The translations under genes were made by a program, and so were the position numbers. A DNA stretch of 56,492 nt from a virus. This document shows, piece by piece, positions 38,828 through 56,492 of the stretch (position 1 is the stretch's first letter; each line of letters opens with the position of its first letter). The stretch is taken from positions 1 through 56,492 of the IMG/VR virus record IMGVR_UViG_3300045996_001187; one strand, given 5' to 3'. The notes under the pieces were generated by a model. The model ran no database searches. It was given only the letters and a program-made list of their open reading frames with translations, and was not told the DNA's origin.

Positions 38828-39234
38828 AGCCAGCCCCTTTCTTTGAACGCTTCGAGAGCGGCCTGTTTACCAGGTGTCAATACACCCGCCGGGACGGCGT
38901 TCTCCCGCTCGGACCTGAATCGCTTGGTCTGACGGCGGTGCAGTTCTTCGAACGCTTCGGCCTGCACGCGGGCCAGGTAACGCGTTAAGAACTCTTGCGC
39001 ATTGCGGCAACCAAGCTCCAAGCCTTCGGTACGCACGCGCTCCAGCTCTTGCGTTGGTATCGAGCGAAACGACTCCAGCCAGCCAGGGAGTATCTGCTCA
39101 GCCTGGGAGTCCGTAAGGGTGCGGCCCTGTGCGCCAAAAGCTTGCGTCATGGTCTCGAAGATTTTAGAAACCCGGTAAGGGTCGCTGTGATATTCCGCGT
39201 TGCGCTCTGCGTTTGTTTTTCTATCGCTGTTCAT
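38824..39234 (-). CDS. Putative helicase loader / primosome accessory
   Basis: 136 residues from the ATG at 39234 behind GGGAG. Helical with 'ETMTQAFGAQGRTLTDSQAEQILPGWLESF' (DnaD/loader-like helices). Lies between the O-like initiator and dnaB, where lambda places gene P, so a helicase loader role is inferred from order only; no AAA+ motif. Confidence 0.6.
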   Translation of the reverse strand: MNSDRKTNAERNAEYHSDPYRVSKIFETMTQAFGAQGRTLTDSQAEQILPGWLESFRSIPTQELERVRTEGLELGCRNAQEFLTRYLARVQAEAFEELHRRQTKRFRSERENAVPAGVLTPGKQAALEAFKERGWL

Positions 39235-40081
39235 GCTGTGCTCCCTTGCCATAGGCTCGTATCGCGGCAATGTTCAATTTGCCGTCAGCGGTTCGTATGT
39301 CACCGGGGTTGCCCGGTGGCGGTCCGGCTCGTTCGAGTAACTTGTCAATCTGAGAGCCAAGCTGCTGGGGGGTCGGTGCGTCATCCAATTTCCATGCGGT
39401 GCGGGCGTGGCGTATCTGCTCCGGGGTATAGCCGTTCTCCGCCAAGGCTTCGGCGGTGGCGGCGGCGCGGATACGAGCGCGGTTGTCCAGCGATATCAAT
39501 TTTGCGTTGAGCCCGCAGGCTTCGAGAACCGCTGAAAAATGGGCTGAGTGATAGCGTTTGTCGTCTGCACCGTCCATGTCGTAAGGTTCACGTTTTGGCT
39601 TCGATTTTGGTGGAGAATTTTCGTGTGCGCGTACACACACTGATGGTTCATATATTAAACCTGACGGTTCATCCTTATATAGGCCCTCATCCACAAAAGG
39701 GTTTTCTCCATTAGGTTTTGCATCCACAAAAGGGTTTTCTAAATTAGGTTTTACGAAAACCTTTTTCTTAAAAGGGTTTTCTCCATTAGGTTTTACGGGC
39801 TCAATCTCAGCTTTCCCACGCGAGATATGGAGCCTGTAACCGTTGGATTTCCCCCGGCCCGAATGCTGTTCTATTGTCAGAAAACCCCGGTCGGACAATC
39901 TCTTAATTACCGCCCGCGCACCACCTTCCGAAAGGTTGCACTTACGCGCGACGGTCTCAACTTTAGGCCAGCATTCGCCCTCGTCGTTGGCGAAGTCGGC
40001 AAGACAAACGAGTACTAACTTTTCGGCATGGTTCGACAGGTTTGGATTGTCCCATGCTTCGGACATTCTCTTTATGCTCAT
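39221..40081 (-). CDS. O-like replication initiator with internal iterons
   Basis: 286 residues. N-terminal winged helix (20-75: 'CWPKVETVARKCNLSEGGARAVIKRLSDRGFLTI'). A linker holds three copies of the octapeptide KPN-x-ENPF (97-104, 111-118, 122-129), encoded by the DNA iterons 39695-39796. The C-terminal helical domain ('YTPEQIRHARTAWKLDD') may bind the helicase. This matches lambda O, whose gene contains its own origin. ATG overlaps the upstream stop. Confidence 0.8.
   Translation of the reverse strand: MSIKRMSEAWDNPNLSNHAEKLVLVCLADFANDEGECWPKVETVARKCNLSEGGARAVIKRLSDRGFLTIEQHSGRGKSNGYRLHISRGKAEIEPVKPNGENPFKKKVFVKPNLENPFVDAKPNGENPFVDEGLYKDEPSGLIYEPSVCVRAHENSPPKSKPKREPYDMDGADDKRYHSAHFSAVLEACGLNAKLISLDNRARIRAAATAEALAENGYTPEQIRHARTAWKLDDAPTPQQLGSQIDKLLERAGPPPGNPGDIRTADGKLNIAAIRAYGKGAQHEQR
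39695..39796. other. Origin candidate: three 27-base iterons inside the initiator gene
   Basis: Near-identical 27-base direct repeats start at 39695, 39728 and 39770 (AAAAGGGTTTTCT...TTAGGTTTT). On the lower-coordinate side (the 3' side in the initiator gene) lies an AT-rich stretch with two TGAnGGTTCAT repeats and a GTGTG/CACAC hairpin (39620-39690). The order iterons then AT-rich duplex in the gene's 5' to 3' direction copies lambda ori. Confidence 0.7.
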
Positions 40082-40617
40082 TGCGGCCTCACCACCTGAG
40101 ACCTCATTGCGCGCACAACGGCGTTTAAAACAACATTTATTGGAACGGCTAGGCCGTGCGTGTTATAGCCGTGGTTTTCAATAGGCGGCTTCTTATATCT
40201 CTCCATCCATGCCGCACCACTCTGCATCCACGCCAGCCGTAGCGGTACCCACGGAAGGAAGAAGCATATATCGTGCTTTATGAAGCCATAAGCAATGAAG
40301 TCGCAGGCCAGACTCTTATTAATCCAACCGGGAGCCCGGGTGGTATCCGCAGAAGAATATTCAATAAAGAAATTATTCGGTTCGTGGTAATCACCTTTTT
40401 CATCGACTCTCCACTCTTTGTCAATCCCATCAAAAACCACCGCATCAACTCCCCGGCGCTGCGCAACATTGTCAGCAGAATTACGCAGGACGTTAACCAT
40501 ATCAGGCCACTGGCGGCGATAGTGGCGGAGCCAGAACTCTTGAACTTCTGGACTCTCGCTCATACGCAGGTCGTTTGAGAAGTTACGCACGGTCCGCACC
40601 TCCTCGCACGGCTGCAT
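40078..40617 (-). CDS. PD-(D/E)XK-like nuclease
   Basis: 179 residues. 'QRRGVDAVVFDGIDKEWRVDEKGDY' supplies an Asp followed by Val-Asp-Glu-Lys, the D...ExK pattern, and the helix-strand 'PGWINKSLACDFIAYGFI' and 'CFFLPWVPLRLAW' complete a layout I recall from plasmid and phage nuclease-like families. May process replication or recombination intermediates. Target unknown. Confidence 0.65.
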   Translation of the reverse strand: MQPCEEVRTVRNFSNDLRMSESPEVQEFWLRHYRRQWPDMVNVLRNSADNVAQRRGVDAVVFDGIDKEWRVDEKGDYHEPNNFFIEYSSADTTRAPGWINKSLACDFIAYGFIKHDICFFLPWVPLRLAWMQSGAAWMERYKKPPIENHGYNTHGLAVPINVVLNAVVRAMRSQVVRPQ

Positions 40618-41704
40618 AGGTGTCCCCTAGCCCTTCGAATACGTCAGCCAGTAGTTCGGCTTCAACGCCAAGCGCGACGACAACTGACGGGAAGGTGGCG
40701 CTGTTGCCGTTCTCGCCTGGGCCACCGAATTTCAACCGACCATGCAGGAAACAACGAGGGTATTCTCGCAGCGCCCTAAACCAGGTTGTGTCAGTTCTCG
40801 CAGGAAGTAAGGCGACAGCCTGGGTAGTGCGCCCCGCATAGAACTCTTCAACGAGCTTGCGCGCCCACTCCCCGATAACGTCACCGTATGGCGGGTTCAT
40901 ATACACGCGCCCGTGCCATTCTTTAAGTAAGCCACTATCTTCTGCGGTGCATATCTCGGCGGCTTTCACAACGGCGTTGGCGGCGATAGAAGTGCAGGGG
41001 TCTATATCTATATTCCCGAGAAGAGAGTGAATGCGCTCCATGATATGAGGCGGCGTGTACCACTCGAAGCTATCGCTCGTCATCATCGGTGCCAAGCGGT
41101 TAGCGTTGCTTGCGTATAGAGTTTTGTTGGCTTCATGAATGACTTCACCGGCGGTGGTGGTATCGCCCTTACCCGTTTCCCATCCTGAAATCTCCAGGCA
41201 TTTCACGGCGGCGTCGGCTTGCTGGGGGGACGTGGCGATAATGGTTTTAGGTGCGCGCTGGGCAGGGCGTGACCTTCCATCGGCACCAACGGTTTTATCC
41301 AACTGGGCAATAATGCCCAGTTGCTCCAACTTCTCTCGGACCGCGCCAACCGTGTGATGACTCACGCCCACAACGTCAGCTATTCGCCTATTACTCCAAT
41401 TCGCAGCCTGCTGTACAAGCTTCTCAAGCTGAGAGTCAAACTGTTTTGCGGTCATGTGCCGTCGTAACGAATTTAACTTTTGCAGATGCTCGTACTTTTC
41501 TTCTTCGGTCAAGCCGGCGCGAATCGTGACCGGGTACTCTTTAATGCCTAGTTCGACGCAAATCTTTTCTCTGTGGTGTCCGTCCAGCGTGTTGCCCTGT
41601 TCATCACGTTCAATGGGCACGAGAACGCCGCGTGCGGCTATATCAGCCTTTAGGGCCTCGTAGGTAAGCGGGTCCATCGGGTCAAACTCTTGGTATTTAC
41701 TCAT
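40583..41704 (-). CDS. ParB-like / phage Dam methyltransferase fusion
   Basis: 373 residues from the ATG at 41704. N-terminal ParB/sulfiredoxin-type domain (1-75, 'DGHHREKICVELGI' nucleotide-binding box) and an HTH (104-130, 'SNRRIADVVGVSHHTVGAV'). C-terminal phage-type N6-adenine methylase with 'NIDIDPCTS' and catalytic 'YMNPPYG' (268-274). The fusion occurs in phages; it probably methylates the phage genome in a sequence- or context-dependent way. Different from the ParB at 51673. Confidence 0.88.
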   Translation of the reverse strand: MSKYQEFDPMDPLTYEALKADIAARGVLVPIERDEQGNTLDGHHREKICVELGIKEYPVTIRAGLTEEEKYEHLQKLNSLRRHMTAKQFDSQLEKLVQQAANWSNRRIADVVGVSHHTVGAVREKLEQLGIIAQLDKTVGADGRSRPAQRAPKTIIATSPQQADAAVKCLEISGWETGKGDTTTAGEVIHEANKTLYASNANRLAPMMTSDSFEWYTPPHIMERIHSLLGNIDIDPCTSIAANAVVKAAEICTAEDSGLLKEWHGRVYMNPPYGDVIGEWARKLVEEFYAGRTTQAVALLPARTDTTWFRALREYPRCFLHGRLKFGGPGENGNSATFPSVVVALGVEAELLADVFEGLGDTYAAVRGGADRA

Positions 41705-42284
41705 CTTTGTATTCCCTCGCATTTTTGCGTATAAAATCAAGTAACTTGTCTGATTCACTAAACCATTCGCCATGGTCTCGCTGGTCATGAAACATAATAT
41801 GAATATTACGCTCATCCTGATGAGTCCCTTCGCGAATGCCAAGTAGCTTTAACTGGAAAGGGCACATAGCCTGAATAGTCTCAAGGCGCGCGTGAACGTT
41901 GGTTGCGAAGCCAATCTTTACAGGGCCACCAAGGACGCTTTGGAAGAAGTAGATATACCCCATCCGAGGGCCGGTTTTTTGTAACACTGCGTCGAAAGGA
42001 TTTCCCTCTGAGGGCTCGCACTCATATACCCGCCAATCGTTTGGCTGTGGCTGCACCTTCTCGGAGGTCCAACAATATGAAACGTGATGTTTGTGAACTG
42101 GCCTTTTTGTGTAAACCTGCTCACCGCCACCTATCACGCGGCAATACCAATACGTGGAATCCTCGTATGGCATCAACGTGACAAGCTTCTCTGAGGAAAA
42201 AGCTTCATACCGGAAACCTTGAATTAGATTGTCTGGCGTTACGCCTTCTGAGGCCACTCGTTCTTGTAAATCTTCTAATGTCAT
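41697..42284 (-). CDS. T5orf172 / GIY-YIG-like protein
   Basis: 195 residues. C-terminal domain 'GYIYFFQSVLGGPVKIGFATNVHARLETIQAMCP' plus 'ERNIHIMFHDQRDHGEWF' is the T5orf172 (MUG113) version of the GIY-YIG fold, with Tyr/Tyr, Arg and Glu in the right order. The N-terminal half is unique. Possible nuclease or DNA-binding partner of the downstream methylase gene. Confidence 0.75.
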   Translation of the reverse strand: MTLEDLQERVASEGVTPDNLIQGFRYEAFSSEKLVTLMPYEDSTYWYCRVIGGGEQVYTKRPVHKHHVSYCWTSEKVQPQPNDWRVYECEPSEGNPFDAVLQKTGPRMGYIYFFQSVLGGPVKIGFATNVHARLETIQAMCPFQLKLLGIREGTHQDERNIHIMFHDQRDHGEWFSESDKLLDFIRKNAREYKDE

Positions 42285-48088: not shown

Positions 48089-48829
48089 TTACACGGACGG
48101 TGACTTATAAACATCAATCATCGCATCAAGTAATTGGAAGGCAGATGCCTGTAAATCCGTGACAGTGGGCTGTAGAGCTTCAACTGCTGCCGACCATGCT
48201 GCCGACCTTGCTGCCGACTCTGCTGCCGACCTTGCTGCCGACTCTGCTGCCGACTCTGCTGCCGACCTTGCTGCCGACCTTGCTGCCGACCATGCTGCCG
48301 ACCTTGCTGCCGACTCTGCTGCCGACTCTGCTGCCGACCTTGCTGCCGACCCTGCTGCCGACCTTGCTGCCGACCTTGCTGCCGACCATGCTGCCGACCT
48401 TGCTGCCGACCTTGCTGCCTCTAAAGCGGACTGTCCAGCTTTAGCACTCATGTCATCTAAAATAGGTGCAAGGTCGAGCAGCTTATCGGCGTGCTCTTGC
48501 AGTTCGGCGGCCCGTAGCCATGCCGGGGCGCATACGCGGGCCAGCCAGTCGGTTGCCATCCATGCGCGCCTTTCCTCGGCCTCATCACTACCGGCAGTAT
48601 TAAGAACCTTCTCGGCATAAGGCTTTAGTTTTTGCCGGGTTTCGTCGTCCAGCGAGTCGTTCCAATTGCGCATGAAAGCCGCAATTACTGACGATACGCA
48701 CTGAGGGCTATCGGACCACGGCTCACGTGCCAAGTAGCTGCTGAGTTCCATCACGCAAGCAGCGCCGCTATCAGGGCTATGCCCACCGCTACCCAGTCTC
48801 AAGCTTTCAATGTCAAGTGTTGTATTCAT
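48089..48829 (-). CDS. Ala-Ala-x-Ser tetrapeptide repeat protein
   Basis: 246 residues from the ATG at 48829 behind GGAG. N-terminal 140 residues are a globular helical domain ('SSVIAAFMRNWNDSLDDETRQKLKPYAEKVL', 'ATDWLARVCAPAWLRAAELQEHA') related to proteins with this repeat in other phages and bacteria. Then 19 copies of Ala-Ala-x-Ser (x = Arg 10, Glu 5, Trp 3, Gly 1) and a C-terminal helix. The repeat likely forms a long helix with one variable face. Function unknown. Confidence 0.8.
   Translation of the reverse strand: MNTTLDIESLRLGSGGHSPDSGAACVMELSSYLAREPWSDSPQCVSSVIAAFMRNWNDSLDDETRQKLKPYAEKVLNTAGSDEAEERRAWMATDWLARVCAPAWLRAAELQEHADKLLDLAPILDDMSAKAGQSALEAARSAARSAAWSAARSAARSAAGSAARSAAESAAESAARSAAWSAARSAARSAAESAAESAARSAAESAARSAAWSAAVEALQPTVTDLQASAFQLLDAMIDVYKSPSV
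48184..48419 (-). repeat. 12-base tandem repeat array with 96-base higher order
   Basis: About 19 tandem 12-base units (GCAGCAnnGTCG type) within the repeat protein gene. Only the x codon varies (AGG, TGG, GAG, GGG). The Trp units are 3, 11 and 19, exactly eight units apart. The 12-base period leaves other frames free of stops, which produces false reading frames on both strands. Confidence 0.9.
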
Positions 48830-48883
48830 AATCTTCTCCATTTTTCATCCGCCACCCATCGCCGGGCGTGGGGGATAGGGGCG

Positions 48884-49134: not shown

Positions 49135-49929
49135 CTAAGCTGCCCTCTCACACACTTCGCTCGAAAATGCGGAGAAGTCGTATTCGTTGTAATCTTCGTC
49201 CTCACCAGCACGCGGCGCGTCCATAAATTCCTCCGCGAACTGCTGGGCGGTCCAGGTGGCATCCGTCAGGATTTCCCACTCGCCGCCGATGTCACCGCGC
49301 CTCATCGCATCAGACACGCTGATAAGTTCTTCGGCGGTCATGTCGGACGCAGAGGAGACATAGTGGCCGATCCAGCCAATGAGGCAAGTGATTCGCTTTT
49401 TCCGCCGCGCCTTATCTTCCTTCTCCAGCCCAAGTAACCGCGCCTCAGACCAAAACCTGCGAAGAGCATTCTTATGGGTCGTTGGGTCAATCTGATACAC
49501 GTTGGATTGAGATTCTCGAACCATCGGCAACGCCTGACTCTCCGGCACTTCGAGCGGCAACGTGTCCTGCTCGTCAGGCCGCAGATCCTGGACAGCTTCT
49601 GCGGCAATCAACGGGGCACCCTGAGACGCAATTAAATTGAGTCTTCTTTGGACTGCCCCAATCATATCGAGTCGCGTCACAGCAATATCGAGCGCGACTT
49701 GGTTGTCGGCCCGTGAATACCAATATTGCCAGTTGTCTTCGGCGTCCCGGTATGCAACGCGGGTTTTAACGATGGCTTCTTCGAGGGTGCAGTCGGTGAG
49801 CGCCTTGACGGTTGCGAGGGCTTCATCGAGTTCGGCAACTGGTCTGCCTGCGATGTTCTCGGGTGTGGGGCCAGCGGGGATGCTGGCTGAGGGTCTTCTG
49901 CGGGGCAGAGTAGGGGAGTCTGATTTCAT
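49135..49929 (-). CDS. Hypothetical early protein
   Basis: 264 residues from the ATG at 49929. Pro/Arg-rich N-terminus, helical centre, 'HKNALRRFWSEARLLGLEKEDKARRKKRITCLIGWIGHYV' basic helix, acidic tail. Second gene of the early operon. No family recognised. DNA or replication role possible. Confidence 0.7.
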   Translation of the reverse strand: MKSDSPTLPRRRPSASIPAGPTPENIAGRPVAELDEALATVKALTDCTLEEAIVKTRVAYRDAEDNWQYWYSRADNQVALDIAVTRLDMIGAVQRRLNLIASQGAPLIAAEAVQDLRPDEQDTLPLEVPESQALPMVRESQSNVYQIDPTTHKNALRRFWSEARLLGLEKEDKARRKKRITCLIGWIGHYVSSASDMTAEELISVSDAMRRGDIGGEWEILTDATWTAQQFAEEFMDAPRAGEDEDYNEYDFSAFSSEVCERAA

Positions 49930-50001
49930 GGTGCGTTTCCTTCGGGTTGGGTAAAATTGTGTCGGTGCCCTTTCGGGCAAGGTCGTCTAGTTTTCTGAGA
50001 A

Positions 50002-50214
50002 CTAGGCGGCCTTTTCTTTCTCTGCGGTAGCGATTTGCTCTTGGCTTTTTAGAAATTCGTCTATCGCACTCTGACGAAGCAATATATTTCTCCCGCGTCT
50101 TATGTGGCTGATCTTGCCATCGTTCACAAGCCTGTAGACAGATGCAACGTTCGTGTATCTCAATCTATCTTTAGCCTCTTCCGGGGTTAGCAATGCTTCG
50201 TTGGCGTTGCTCAT
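50002..50214 (-). CDS. Excisionase-type HTH protein
   Basis: 70 residues from the ATG at 50214 behind GGAGGGAAG. 'LLTPEEAKDRLRYTNVASVYRLVNDGKISHIRRGRNILLRQSAIDEFLKSQ' is the excisionase/MerR-like HTH_17 fold: HTH then a wing with 'RRGRNILL'. First gene of the early operon; since no integrase exists, it is probably a Cro- or activator-like regulator rather than an excisionase. Confidence 0.85.
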   Translation of the reverse strand: MSNANEALLTPEEAKDRLRYTNVASVYRLVNDGKISHIRRGRNILLRQSAIDEFLKSQEQIATAEKEKAA

Positions 50215-50225
50215 AATCTTCCCTC

Positions 50226-50334
50226 CATTACGTAATGAACGCCCTATAACCTGTAATAGGCCTCTTATTAGGGTGCTATGTGAATAATATACAGTTATAT
50301 AATTCACTAGTCAAGGGGAATTATATAAAATAGT
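50226..50334. promoter_or_regulatory. Early operon control region with several palindromes
   Basis: Leftward promoter: TTGACT (50314-50309), 17-base spacer, TATATT (50291-50286). GTGAAT...ATTCAC (50280-50285 with 50302-50307) covers -10 and spacer, a natural operator. Downstream are CATTACGTAATG (50226-50237, perfect) and CCTAT/ATAGG. On the other side TATAAA (50325) and TATAGA may serve the repressor gene. AGCACC...GGTGCT flanks 50360-50390. Confidence 0.7.
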
Positions 50335-50405
50335 ATAGAATCTAGTAGAATAATGTTAAGTCAGCACCAAGAACAGTTTACACGGTGCTAAGAACAGGTG
50401 AAAAA

Positions 50406-51005
50406 GTGGCACGTGCGGGACGCCCCTCGACAGGGCGGGAAACTAAAACTCAGCGGTTTACCTCTTACTTCAAGCCCTCTCTGATGTCTCGTATGGAGGA
50501 GTTGGCGGCTGAAGAATACAGCAGCGTGAATGCTGTGCTGGAGAGGGCGGTTGAGCGGCTTTTGGAGTATGGCGAAGCCAGGCCGCTAACAGTCAAGCTC
50601 TACCACACCGCCCCTTGCGGAGAATGGCAGGATGCCAACGACGCCGACGCCACAGACTTCGAGCTGTCACCTGATCTCGTGAACCTCTGGGGCGTGCATC
50701 CGACCGACCATCTCATTCACACGCGCGGAGCCAGTATGTGCGAAGAGGGGATACCGGACGAGGCCATATTACACATCCGGCCCTTCGGTTTTCGCGCCCC
50801 GCGTAGCGGCCAAATCTGCGTCGTGACCGCCGTAAACAGGGAAACCAACGAATCCTGGGGCACAGTCAAGAAATGGATGCACGACGGGCAGAAGGCGGTC
50901 CTGAAGGACGGCAAGGGCGATACCCTCGAAATGCCCGAAGGGGCCAACGAAGTGCACGCGGTCGGATATTGGACAGGTAATGTGATTGGGGTTTCGAGCG
51001 GCTGA
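50406..51005 (+). CDS. RHH-S24 (LexA/UmuD-like) self-cleaving repressor
   Basis: 199 residues from the GTG at 50406 behind AGGTGA (another in-frame GTG is at 50385). Residues 12-55: ribbon-helix-helix ('QRFTSYFKPSLMSRMEELAAEEYSSVNAVLERAVERLLE'). Residues 60-199: S24 peptidase fold with Cys71-Gly72 cleavage site (as in UmuD), Ser110 in 'GASMCEEG' and Lys155 in 'WGTVKKW'. An RHH instead of an HTH on a LexA fold is unusual. DNA-damage-triggered self-cleavage would relieve early-operon repression. Confidence 0.8.
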   Translation: MARAGRPSTGRETKTQRFTSYFKPSLMSRMEELAAEEYSSVNAVLERAVERLLEYGEARPLTVKLYHTAPCGEWQDANDADATDFELSPDLVNLWGVHPTDHLIHTRGASMCEEGIPDEAILHIRPFGFRAPRSGQICVVTAVNRETNESWGTVKKWMHDGQKAVLKDGKGDTLEMPEGANEVHAVGYWTGNVIGVSSG

Positions 51006-51056: not shown

Positions 51057-51683
51057 ATGATCATTTCTGTAATCAACCAAAAGGGTGGGGTCGGTAAGAG
51101 CACGGCGCTCATCAATCTAGCAGCAGCTTTGCGCGAGTCGGGCCATAAGGTCGCGGTCATCGATACCGACGACCAGGAGACCGCCTACGGCTACAGGGCC
51201 GCCGTCAAGGGCGTTAAATTCTCCCTGGCGACCCTAGTCAACCTGGCCGAGGTACTAGGTAAGCAAAAGGCCGATTTCGTCCTGGTGGACAGCCCGCGCA
51301 GCCTGAACGACGACGAAGCCGCCATCATCCTAAAACTTGTCGACCTCGCCATAATTGCCACCGAAAACGAAATCGACTCCTATGTGGCTTTGCTCCGCAC
51401 GGTGCAGGTGGCGAAACAGATACAGGCAGACGGACGGCCCGATTTACAGTATCGGGTGTTGCTCAGCAAAAACTCAGGCGCGGACCATCGCAAAGAGATT
51501 AGGGCCGATATTAAAAACAACTGCGGGCCACAGATGCTCAAGGCCGCACTACCCAATAGCACCGTGTTTGGCCGTGCGGCCTTTCATGGTGAAACTGTGC
51601 TCGACCATGCGCCGGACTCAACCGCGGCCAAGGCGTGCCGCAAGCTGGCCGTAGAAGTGGAGAAGATGAAAAATGGCGCTTAG
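51057..51683 (+). CDS. parA: ParA partition ATPase (type Ib, small)
   Basis: 208 residues, no N-terminal HTH. Walker A 'KGGVGKST' (9-16) with the deviant Lys, 'VIDTDDQETA' and 'FVLVDSPRS' (A'/B). Drives plasmid segregation by ATP-dependent nucleoid binding. Overlaps parB by 11 bases. Confidence 0.93.
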   Translation: MIISVINQKGGVGKSTALINLAAALRESGHKVAVIDTDDQETAYGYRAAVKGVKFSLATLVNLAEVLGKQKADFVLVDSPRSLNDDEAAIILKLVDLAIIATENEIDSYVALLRTVQVAKQIQADGRPDLQYRVLLSKNSGADHRKEIRADIKNNCGPQMLKAALPNSTVFGRAAFHGETVLDHAPDSTAAKACRKLAVEVEKMKNGA

Positions 51684-52803
51684 TGCAACACAGATCGCGC
51701 AGCAGCGGGTGGGCAGGGCAGGGACGCCCAAAGCCGACGCCGTGAAGGTGAATCCGAACTCTCGCATCGTGCACCGTGACCGGCTGCACTTCATGCCGGG
51801 ACAGCCACGCACTTACTTTGACCCCAAAAAGGGCGAAGAGTTGCGCGCGTCCCTGAAAGCCAAGGGTCAGCTGCAGGCGCTCATCGTGCGGCCATGGAAG
51901 GACCATACCGGCCACGTAGCCGAAGGTCACTATGAAGTGGTGGGCGGCGAGCGGCGCGTCCGCTATTCGGAGCCGGCGCGCGACTGGAAGGGGCTGTCAG
52001 AGTTCATCGTTGAAGTGCGCCAGATGTCGGATGTCGAGGCGTTCCTCGCGTCCCTCGCCGAAAACCTCGACCGGCACGATCTCACCACCTACGACGAAGT
52101 CAGGGCCGTGGCGCGTCTCAGGGACGACTTCAACATGTCAATGGCCGACATCCAGACGCAATTGCACCAGGAGCGCGGCTGGGTGCAAAACCGGTGGAAT
52201 GCTTCGAAAATGACCGAGGCACTACAGAACCATCTCAAAAAACCGGATTCACTTTCCAAGGCGCTCGAAATCGCCAAGGCACCCAATGCCAAGCTGATGG
52301 ACCAACTCACCGAAGAGTTCGACAGCCTGACGGTGCAGGACGTGAAACAGCGCATCACCGAATACAAGCTGATGCACGCGCCGCACCTGGTGAGCAAACC
52401 AAAAGAGCCCGCGCCGTCTCTCGACTTTGACGGGCAGGGGAGTGACGAGCGCATCAATGGCTATGAGCCAGCGGCCCAATATCGAGCCAGCGGCTATGAA
52501 TCCAACGCCGGCATCACGACGGGCCGCACATCCAGCCGCGACCGCTTCATTCAGTCGCCCCAGGGCAGCAAGCGGGTTTACAGTGCGCCCGAAGTGCTGC
52601 CATCGGCTCTGCCGGCCATGCTGGAACGCACCGAGGAAGGGCTACAATATTTCGCACAGCAATACGAGCGGTTATCTTCCAATGGCTCCTATGATGTGCT
52701 GACACAGAACCAGATGCTGACCAGGCTCGAAAACATCCTGCGCTATGCCGAGGCGGGTATCGAGGCTATCCACGCTGGACAGCAGGGCAGGCGGAAACGA
52801 TAG
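51673..52803 (+). CDS. parB: ParB partition protein
   Basis: 376 residues. N-terminal ParB CTPase with 'KAKGQLQALIVRP', 'YEVVGGERRVRYSEPAR' and 'LAENLDRHDLTTYDEVRAVARL', then HTH ('MSMADIQTQLHQERGWVQNRW'). C-terminal helices after a disordered Ser/Gly/Pro linker dimerise. No evident parS seen; search near 51010-51056 and downstream. Confidence 0.92.
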   Translation: MALSATQIAQQRVGRAGTPKADAVKVNPNSRIVHRDRLHFMPGQPRTYFDPKKGEELRASLKAKGQLQALIVRPWKDHTGHVAEGHYEVVGGERRVRYSEPARDWKGLSEFIVEVRQMSDVEAFLASLAENLDRHDLTTYDEVRAVARLRDDFNMSMADIQTQLHQERGWVQNRWNASKMTEALQNHLKKPDSLSKALEIAKAPNAKLMDQLTEEFDSLTVQDVKQRITEYKLMHAPHLVSKPKEPAPSLDFDGQGSDERINGYEPAAQYRASGYESNAGITTGRTSSRDRFIQSPQGSKRVYSAPEVLPSALPAMLERTEEGLQYFAQQYERLSSNGSYDVLTQNQMLTRLENILRYAEAGIEAIHAGQQGRRKR

Positions 52804-53334: not shown

Positions 53335-53414
53335 TACGGCACACAAAAAAACAACGCCGCAGCATCACTATATTTTCTTGGCGGAAAATGATGCAACGGC
53401 GTCGAAAGGTAGCC

Positions 53415-54383
53415 ATGAGTATAGAGACCGGCGCCGATGGCGTCAAGGTGGTCATTACACGAGACCACCTGTATCACCTCCTAAAGCGCCCGGTGGCGTT
53501 TTATCCCATATTCTCAGTCATTGCAGGCGGCGCCAAGGCTGGCCTTTTCCTCTCCCAGGCGTTCTACTGGGACGAGCGCACCAGCGACCCGGACGGATGG
53601 TTCTACAAGAAACAGACCGAATGGGAAGAGGAAACAACCCTCAACGAGGAAGAGCAAAAAACCGCACGGCGCCACCTCATCAAACGTAAGTTGCTGGAAG
53701 AGAAGCGGATCGGCGTTCCCGCAAAGCTCCACTACCGAATCAATAAGGAAAAAATACTCGAAGCCATAGGAGAAGCCATTGGCGCCAATGTCCTAGCCGC
53801 GCCCCAGATTCCGGGAAAGTCGGAATCTAGTTCCGGGGAAAGTCCGAACCAAGATTCCGGCAATGGCGGGAGCATGCCTCCGACTAATTCGGAATCTCTT
53901 AGTACAGAGAGTACACACGAGAGTACTTCAGAGAGCACACACACAGCCGATGCGCGTGTCGAAGATAAATCTTCCTCTCTCGAAGCCATCACAACGCAAC
54001 TTACTGCCGCCGGTCTCTCCCCAAGGGATGCCGCGCGACTGGTGGCCGAAGTCGGTGCCGACCAATGCACCCGCAACCTCAACCCGCCAGGCATCGGTGG
54101 CGCCAAGAATCGAGTCGCCTATCTAAAATCCGCGATCCGTGGCGACTATGCGGCAGGATTGACCTCTGAGTTGTCGCAGGCAGCCCAGGGCACACCTGTG
54201 GCCCCAGTGCGCGAATTATGGCAGCAGGAAGCGTGCGAGCGCGTCTATGAGTCCCTGCACCCTAATGCACAGAAGAGTGCTGACGCCAGCAGTCTGGGGC
54301 GCTATGGCTATGTGGAGCGCTTCCACGGGGAGGAATTGAAAAAGGCGGTTGCGGAGATGCGGCAGGAGGGGTTAATAACTTGA
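53415..54383 (+). CDS. Plasmid-type replication initiation protein
   Basis: 322 residues from the ATG at 53415 behind AAAGG (frame extends to 53388). Residues 1-110: winged helix of plasmid/phage initiators ('LFLSQAFYWDERTSDPDGWFYKKQTEWEEETTLNEEEQKTARRHLIKRKLLEEKRIG'). A Ser/Thr/Glu linker (130-190) leads to a C-terminal helical domain ('LTAAGLSPRDAARLVAEVGA'). With ParA/ParB and DnaA boxes it forms a rep-par module separate from the O/DnaB module. Confidence 0.75.
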   Translation: MSIETGADGVKVVITRDHLYHLLKRPVAFYPIFSVIAGGAKAGLFLSQAFYWDERTSDPDGWFYKKQTEWEEETTLNEEEQKTARRHLIKRKLLEEKRIGVPAKLHYRINKEKILEAIGEAIGANVLAAPQIPGKSESSSGESPNQDSGNGGSMPPTNSESLSTESTHESTSESTHTADARVEDKSSSLEAITTQLTAAGLSPRDAARLVAEVGADQCTRNLNPPGIGGAKNRVAYLKSAIRGDYAAGLTSELSQAAQGTPVAPVRELWQQEACERVYESLHPNAQKSADASSLGRYGYVERFHGEELKKAVAEMRQEGLIT

Positions 54384-55256: not shown

Positions 55257-55598
55257 GTGGAGGTTGTGGGATATGATTGGAGGCCCGAAATCTGTTTGCC
55301 TGAAATGAACCCCGCGACGTGCTTCAACTATCAGCTCATGGACAACACATTCGCCCCTGAGCATCCCGCTGGCTCCTGGCTCTGCATCGACAAGGCGCTA
55401 GAGGTCGAAGACGGCGACACAGTTCTGGCGGCTATCGACGGTGAGATGTGGCTGGGCGAGCGGAAATGGGACGAAGACAAGAATAGTTACTGGCTACTAA
55501 GACCGGATGGGCAGAGGATTTGGCCGGCGTTGGAGTTTCGGGTTGTGGGTGTGGTGCGGTGGGAGGTTAACTGTCAATCCAGCGGTGACGCGAAGTAG
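55257..55598 (+). CDS. S24/UmuD-fold protein lacking the catalytic dyad
   Basis: 113 residues (GTG start). 'CFNYQLMDNTFAPEHPAGSWLCIDKALEVEDGDTVLAAIDGEMWLGERKW' follows the S24 fold (binding strand, 'P..GS..', 'EDGD.V.A..DGE'). The Ser of the usual D-S-M is Thr in 'MDNTF', and the expected Lys is Gly/Glu. 'LEFRVVGVVRWEV' is the final strand. Probably not catalytic; could pair with the S24 repressor or mimic its substrate. Confidence 0.7.
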   Translation: MEVVGYDWRPEICLPEMNPATCFNYQLMDNTFAPEHPAGSWLCIDKALEVEDGDTVLAAIDGEMWLGERKWDEDKNSYWLLRPDGQRIWPALEFRVVGVVRWEVNCQSSGDAK

Positions 55599-56365: not shown

Positions 56366-56492
56366 TTCTCTCCTTCCAGCGTGCCATGCTCGGCAATAGT
56401 TAGCGGCTACGGAATGGCACGGTATTCTGTTACAGAGTGGCCGTTCAGAATAGCTTGCCTTTTCTCTAAATACCCCTTATTGCACAATGAAT
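56366..56492. repeat. Contig-end direct repeat, right copy
   Basis: Same 127 bases as 1-127; delete one copy to close the circle. Confidence 0.95.

Follow-up and report, generated by a model that had tools for sequence, protein, structure and literature searches.

A plus-strand gene in the virus record IMGVR_UViG_3300045996_001187 raises the question of whether the S24 domain of LexA and CI can be carried by a protein with a ribbon-helix-helix (RHH) DNA-binding domain, and of what such a protein would do for the phage that encodes it. An earlier note on this DNA had read the product as a LexA/UmuD-like repressor with an RHH domain and had supposed the architecture to be rare. The whole record of 56,492 bases is called the window below.

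Source Genome and Extent of the Gene

The first and last 127 bases of the window were identical (1-127 and 56366-56492), so the genome is probably complete and either circular or terminally redundant. Genes for terminase, major head and tail proteins, DnaB helicase, an Erf-like annealing protein and an endolysin were located on the minus strand. The plus strand near the end of the window carried the RHH-S24 gene, the partition ATPase ParA (51057-51683; NF041546 E 4e-32, below its cut-off; phrog_164 E 6e-29), the partition protein ParB (51673-52803; TIGR00180 above cut-off; ParB_N) and an O-like replication initiator (53388-54383; phrog_9773 E 2.7e-36). Phage genes on the minus strand together with a ParAB/initiator set on the plus strand suggest a phage-plasmid, and the features by which phage-plasmids are defined were all found, namely structural genes, replication and partition genes, and the 127-bp end repeats. 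The gene content thus suggests that the window virus is a putative phage-plasmid that may be maintained as a plasmid. The PHROGs scan, which covered 36 ORFs of the window, reported no integrase. In the host search, terminase, ParB, ParA, the initiator and the major head protein gave distant matches or none, and no tRNA was found.

A second, different O-like initiator was present at 39221-40081 (minus strand), beside the DnaB helicase gene on the phage side; possibly one of the two initiators serves lytic replication and the other, by parAB, plasmid replication. Three further minus-strand products were recorded: a cysteine-dioxygenase-like protein in this phage (36688-37122; phrog_4786 E 5e-36), a single ORF combining a ParB-like N-terminal part with a DNA methyltransferase (40583-41842; phrog_111 E 5e-37), and a protein with an extended run of short alanine-rich repeats resembling AARSAAWSAARSAAESAA (48089-48841).

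The RHH-S24 gene had two possible starts, GTG at 50385 (206 aa) and GTG at 50406 (199 aa), with the stop codon ending at 51005. The start at 50406 was used, where the alignment with the sole relative found (L001, 69% identical, on a 51.5-kb IMG/VR contig) begins and where AGGTGA lies just 5' of the codon. The gene therefore occupies 50406-51005 and encodes 199 aa, as assigned from the ORF, the profiles and the structure model.

The C-terminal S24 Domain

Residues 58-199 aligned with the C-terminal domains of E. coli LexA and UmuD, and with that of L065, a CI-like repressor of HTH-S24 architecture on a contig from a spirochete endosymbiont (Pfam S24 E 3.8e-19, plus HTH_19). Ten residues were invariant in this comparison (G72, G108-x-S110-M111, G115-I116, G135, T153-x-K155, and G187), and the same ten were unchanged across a 10-row S24 alignment. 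The predicted self-cleavage site, Cys71-Gly72 (50616-50621), aligned with the Ala-Gly site of LexA and the Cys-Gly site of UmuD. The predicted nucleophile Ser110 (50733-50735) lay in a G-x-S-M motif, and the predicted general base Lys155 (50868-50870) in a T-V-K motif. The Ala/Cys-Gly dipeptide and the Ser-Lys dyad had the order and spacing of the S24 superfamily (LexA/UmuD/CI). These three features had been named in the earlier note, and they were found where it placed them, lined up with those of E. coli LexA, of UmuD and of the CI-like repressor.

Smith-Waterman scores were 52 against the LexA domain (matched by 1 of 1000 shuffles), 40 against UmuD (7 of 1000), and 90 against the L065 domain (0 of 1000), the last being inflated because L065 was chosen through a motif from the RHH-S24 family. 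For the relative L001, the LexA and L065 scores exceeded all 1000 shuffles, and the UmuD score was at chance level (204 of 1000). An HMM built from 10 S24 domains, with no window row, ranked the ORF first of 710 (E 1.6e-7) and L001 second; when L065 was left out of the HMM, the E value of the window ORF was 4.9e-5.

Curated profiles gave weaker results. Pfam Peptidase_S24 (PF00717), whose gathering score is an operational cut-off and not a biological feature, was unreported for the full protein at E<=1 and for the C-terminal domain alone at E<=10, and TIGR00498 (LexA) reached 12 bits against a cut-off of 110.95. Such scores would suit a reading in which the S24 resemblance is a relic of the fold and the domain a non-cleaving dimerisation module. 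However, the cleavage dipeptide, the Ser and the Lys were all kept in both relatives despite their 69% identity, and this reading is highly improbable.

The first structure model, whose rows were the two relatives only, reached a pLDDT of 36.6 and was discarded. An AlphaFold2 model from ten rows reached 73.6, and its residues 57-199 showed the lambda-CI/LexA fold with Z up to 13.8. The best match was the RecA-bound lambda repressor (model residues 61-195; Z 13.8, rmsd 2.5, 120 aligned), and LexA also matched (model residues 62-195; Z 13.5, rmsd 2.7, 118 aligned). The structure prediction proposed in the earlier note as a check on S24 thus returned the fold over residues 57-199 with distant S24 rows in the input; as 8 of the 10 rows were S24 domains, which favours an S24 fold, the model shows compatibility and is no standalone proof of the fold.

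The protein shared with LexA of E. coli and P. aeruginosa the C-terminal S24 domain with its cleavage dipeptide, GxSM and TVK motifs and fold, while short insertions flanked the GQI strand on both sides in comparison with LexA. LexA has a winged HTH, whereas this protein has a probable RHH domain instead. E. coli UmuD has the same Cys-Gly dipeptide, but it is without a DNA-binding domain, unlike the RHH-S24 protein. The S24 halves of L065 and the RHH-S24 protein were 33% identical, and the N-terminus of L065 was HTH, not RHH. According to PMC11332147, the UmuD-like protein UmuDAb represses DNA-damage genes, and its DNA-binding domain is given there as a putative HTH.

The Probable N-terminal RHH Domain

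The RHH domain was placed at about residues 14-56 (50445-50573). Over residues 19-54 the best Pfam match was Antitox_RHH (E 2e-4), followed by RHH_7 and RHH_1, all below cut-off, and Antitox_RHH was again the best family for L001 (E 0.021, sub-threshold). No HTH family was present in the Pfam listing for the protein, which together with the TIGR00498 score places it outside LexA proper. PHROGs matches to the RHH half were Arc-like repressors (E 0.03-0.4). A two-protein profile searched against whole genomes retrieved two CopG-like genes, both RHH-only and both flanked by traG- and trbB-like genes (neighbours identified by eye). Of the two, L098 matched RHH_1 above cut-off. The N-terminal RHH motif is probably shared with Arc/CopG-type regulators (Antitox_RHH; L098), and L098 is without an S24 domain.

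In the ten-row model, helices at 24-36 and 41-55 were placed as RHH requires. The RHH strand was absent from the monomer model, in which residues 1-20 had a pLDDT of about 40. The fold search, which barely tested residues 1-56, had no RHH chain among its matches, and the N-terminal half, when its sequence was compared with PDB, had a single weak match that was taken as chance. Residues of about 14-56 very likely form an RHH domain, less strongly supported than the S24 half. The combination of RHH and S24 put forward in the earlier note found support in the sequence profiles and the model, and the RHH-S24 architecture is well supported.

Relatives in the Databases

Besides L001, no relatives were found in IMG/VR (three queries and a corrected motif) or genome_contigs, nor in 50,697 phage and 72,556 plasmid records. 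In IMG/VR, 12 loci matched a degenerate DNA pattern written for the VGxWxGNVIG motif of the C-terminus, 11 of them unrelated and one the known relative; the corrected pattern, spanning M to GI, returned the known relative only. A slightly shortened M-to-GI pattern gave 79 loci in genome_contigs, of which 76 were by eye unrelated TMxxPGIP[ED]-like ORFs. Of the remainder, L032 crossed a stop, L029 was unrelated by eye, and L065 was a true S24 repressor according to the domain scan. Profile A3 (window row first) confirmed the known relative only, and profile A4 (L065 first) kept 80 loci of 230 confirmed, mostly UmuD.

The two-relative profile matched 1 of 9, 1 of 398 (phylum of G001, taken as Pseudomonadota), 0 of 296 and 0 of 5 whole genomes. 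A second 398-genome sample with a different centre also gave 1 of 398 with the identical match, so the two samples overlap. Of 398 genomes, 347 had a match to the S24 profile, and by eye each of its best-scoring 30 loci resembled LexA or UmuD; being best-scoring, these form a biased sample and give little information on rare architectures. The supposed rarity of the architecture held in the database scans, with one relative found.

The Putative Divergent Switch Region

The RHH-S24 gene stands where the genes read leftward diverge from the repressor-parA-parB set read rightward, and lambda CI-type repressors (e.g., L065, HTH_19 plus S24) are likewise sited at a divergent switch. The first leftward gene (50002-50214, minus strand, ATG at 50214) encodes an HTH_17/excisionase-like DNA-binding protein (Pfam HTH_17 E 7.7e-10; phrog_66 E 4.7e-4), and the second (49135-49980, minus strand), assigned from the ORF and the comparison, is kept in L001 at 46.6% identity. 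The L001 neighbourhood matched that of the window, with the HTH_17-like gene and the second conserved gene leftward and RHH-S24, ParA and ParB rightward, so that each RHH-S24 gene lies between a leftward HTH gene and parA-parB. Identities between the window and L001 were 46% for RHH, 32% for the HTH_17-like protein, 73% for S24, 69% for ParA, and 64% for ParB. Divergence of the RHH half and the HTH_17 gene with the S24 half, ParA and ParB better kept would be expected if DNA specificity shifts between immunity groups.

The stretch between the divergent genes had 34% G+C, compared with 55% in the genome. It contained a 28-bp palindrome, GTGAATAATATACAGTTATATAATTCAC, at 50280-50307, a candidate operator with 11 of 14 pairs (33 of 2000 shuffles were as good). 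The best palindrome in L001 also had 11 of 14 pairs (69 of 2000 shuffles as good), and by coordinates the distance from the palindrome centre to the start codon downstream was 112.5 bp in both. Taken singly, the palindromes are mildly unusual; as the two intergenic regions share descent, they do not count as independent draws. The half-site GAATWATATA occurred three times in the window, always in the switch region: at 50282-50291 (plus), at 50296-50305 (minus), and as a third half-site at 50318-50327 (plus). The expected number was 0.10 and none of 100 shuffles had three copies, figures that are after the fact because the motif was first read off the switch region.

The palindrome overlapped a leftward sigma70-like promoter sequence, TTGACT-17-TATATT (50286-50314, minus strand). 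The counterpart in L001, TTGAAA-18-TATAAT, was also leftward and overlapped the L001 palindrome; about 0.8 promoter-like sites per region are expected by chance. The operator region proposed in the earlier note, 50226-50334, includes the palindrome. In the reading of the protein as a LexA/UmuD-like RHH repressor, architecture and rarity were supported, and the term 'repressor' is backed by the genome position and by the palindrome, whose location over a leftward promoter-like site is common to both relatives.

The position of the gene could also point to plasmid maintenance. Small RHH proteins commonly adjoin ParA, and regulators of the ParG/Omega/CopG type are the model for such a role. Here parA immediately follows the RHH-S24 gene after a gap of 51 bp, with parB next, all on one strand, and the protein could be mainly an RHH regulator of its own repressor-parA-parB operon whose S24 domain serves oligomerisation or copy control and not lysogeny. 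However, this role would not require the cleavage site and dyad to be intact, the palindrome is not confined to the rightward promoter-like site but overlaps the leftward one, and no alternative repressor candidate was present among the window ORFs scanned. Plasmid maintenance as the role of the protein is rather unlikely.

Proposed Mechanism of the Lysogeny Repressor

The RHH-S24 protein is probably the lysogeny repressor, released by RecA-stimulated self-cleavage, of a temperate phage that persists as a partitioned plasmid. From the domains and the switch region we infer operator binding, cleavage and SOS coupling, as follows. RHH dimers would bind the palindrome at 50280-50307 and the third half-site at 50318-50327, both candidate sites, and S24 domains would pair adjacent RHH dimers. 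The bound repressor would shut the leftward promoter and tune its own. After DNA damage, the RecA filament would stimulate self-cleavage at Cys71-Gly72, and cleavage would free the DNA mainly through loss of the S24-mediated dimer-dimer contact, or through proteolysis of the fragments.

The RHH domains of Arc and CopG form their own intertwined dimer, while LexA and CI need their S24 domain for dimerisation. Since RHH is a dimer by itself, cleavage should affect the contacts between dimers at two or three half-sites, or fragment stability. Cleavage of LexA or CI undoes the dimer, whereas in the RHH-S24 protein the dimer itself would persist.

A solo UmuD-like S24 domain was encoded at 55257-55598 (plus strand; Pfam S24 E 6e-4; phrog_811 E 4.6e-7), and its Ser and Lys positions were apparently replaced in the alignment. 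A second S24 domain with a degenerate dyad in the same genome would fit a lysogeny repressor induced by an antirepressor and not by RecA, in which the solo protein could pair with the S24 domain of the repressor. However, the solo gene was broken in the related phage, where an 18-residue match lay beside a stop (G407:48880-48933), and the repressor dyad is intact though this route would not require one. Induction by an antirepressor is very unlikely. The fuller scheme, in which an SOS-cleavable RHH prophage repressor loses its inter-dimer contacts on cleavage and is also modulated in trans by the catalytically dead UmuD-like S24 protein, is unlikely.

Comparison with the Literature and Meaning

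The portions available of PMC8565304 and PMC13148647 describe S24 regulators as using HTH variants. In the available text on P2TF (PMC3532121), 1978 S24 transcription factors are of LexA or Xre type, and the part of cTFbase that was accessible gives CopG fusions and Peptidase_S24 separately. No description of an RHH-S24 repressor was found in the literature as covered by titles and the start of abstracts, a coverage that mostly excludes subscription papers.

RHH-S24 would be a new form of self-cleaving repressor, so far in two metagenomic phages only. If this is true, the self-cleaving module can join an unrelated DNA-binding fold. As the RHH dimer is stable alone, the protein would make it possible to test directly which effect of cleavage inactivates a repressor, the loss of dimerisation or the loss of higher-order contacts.
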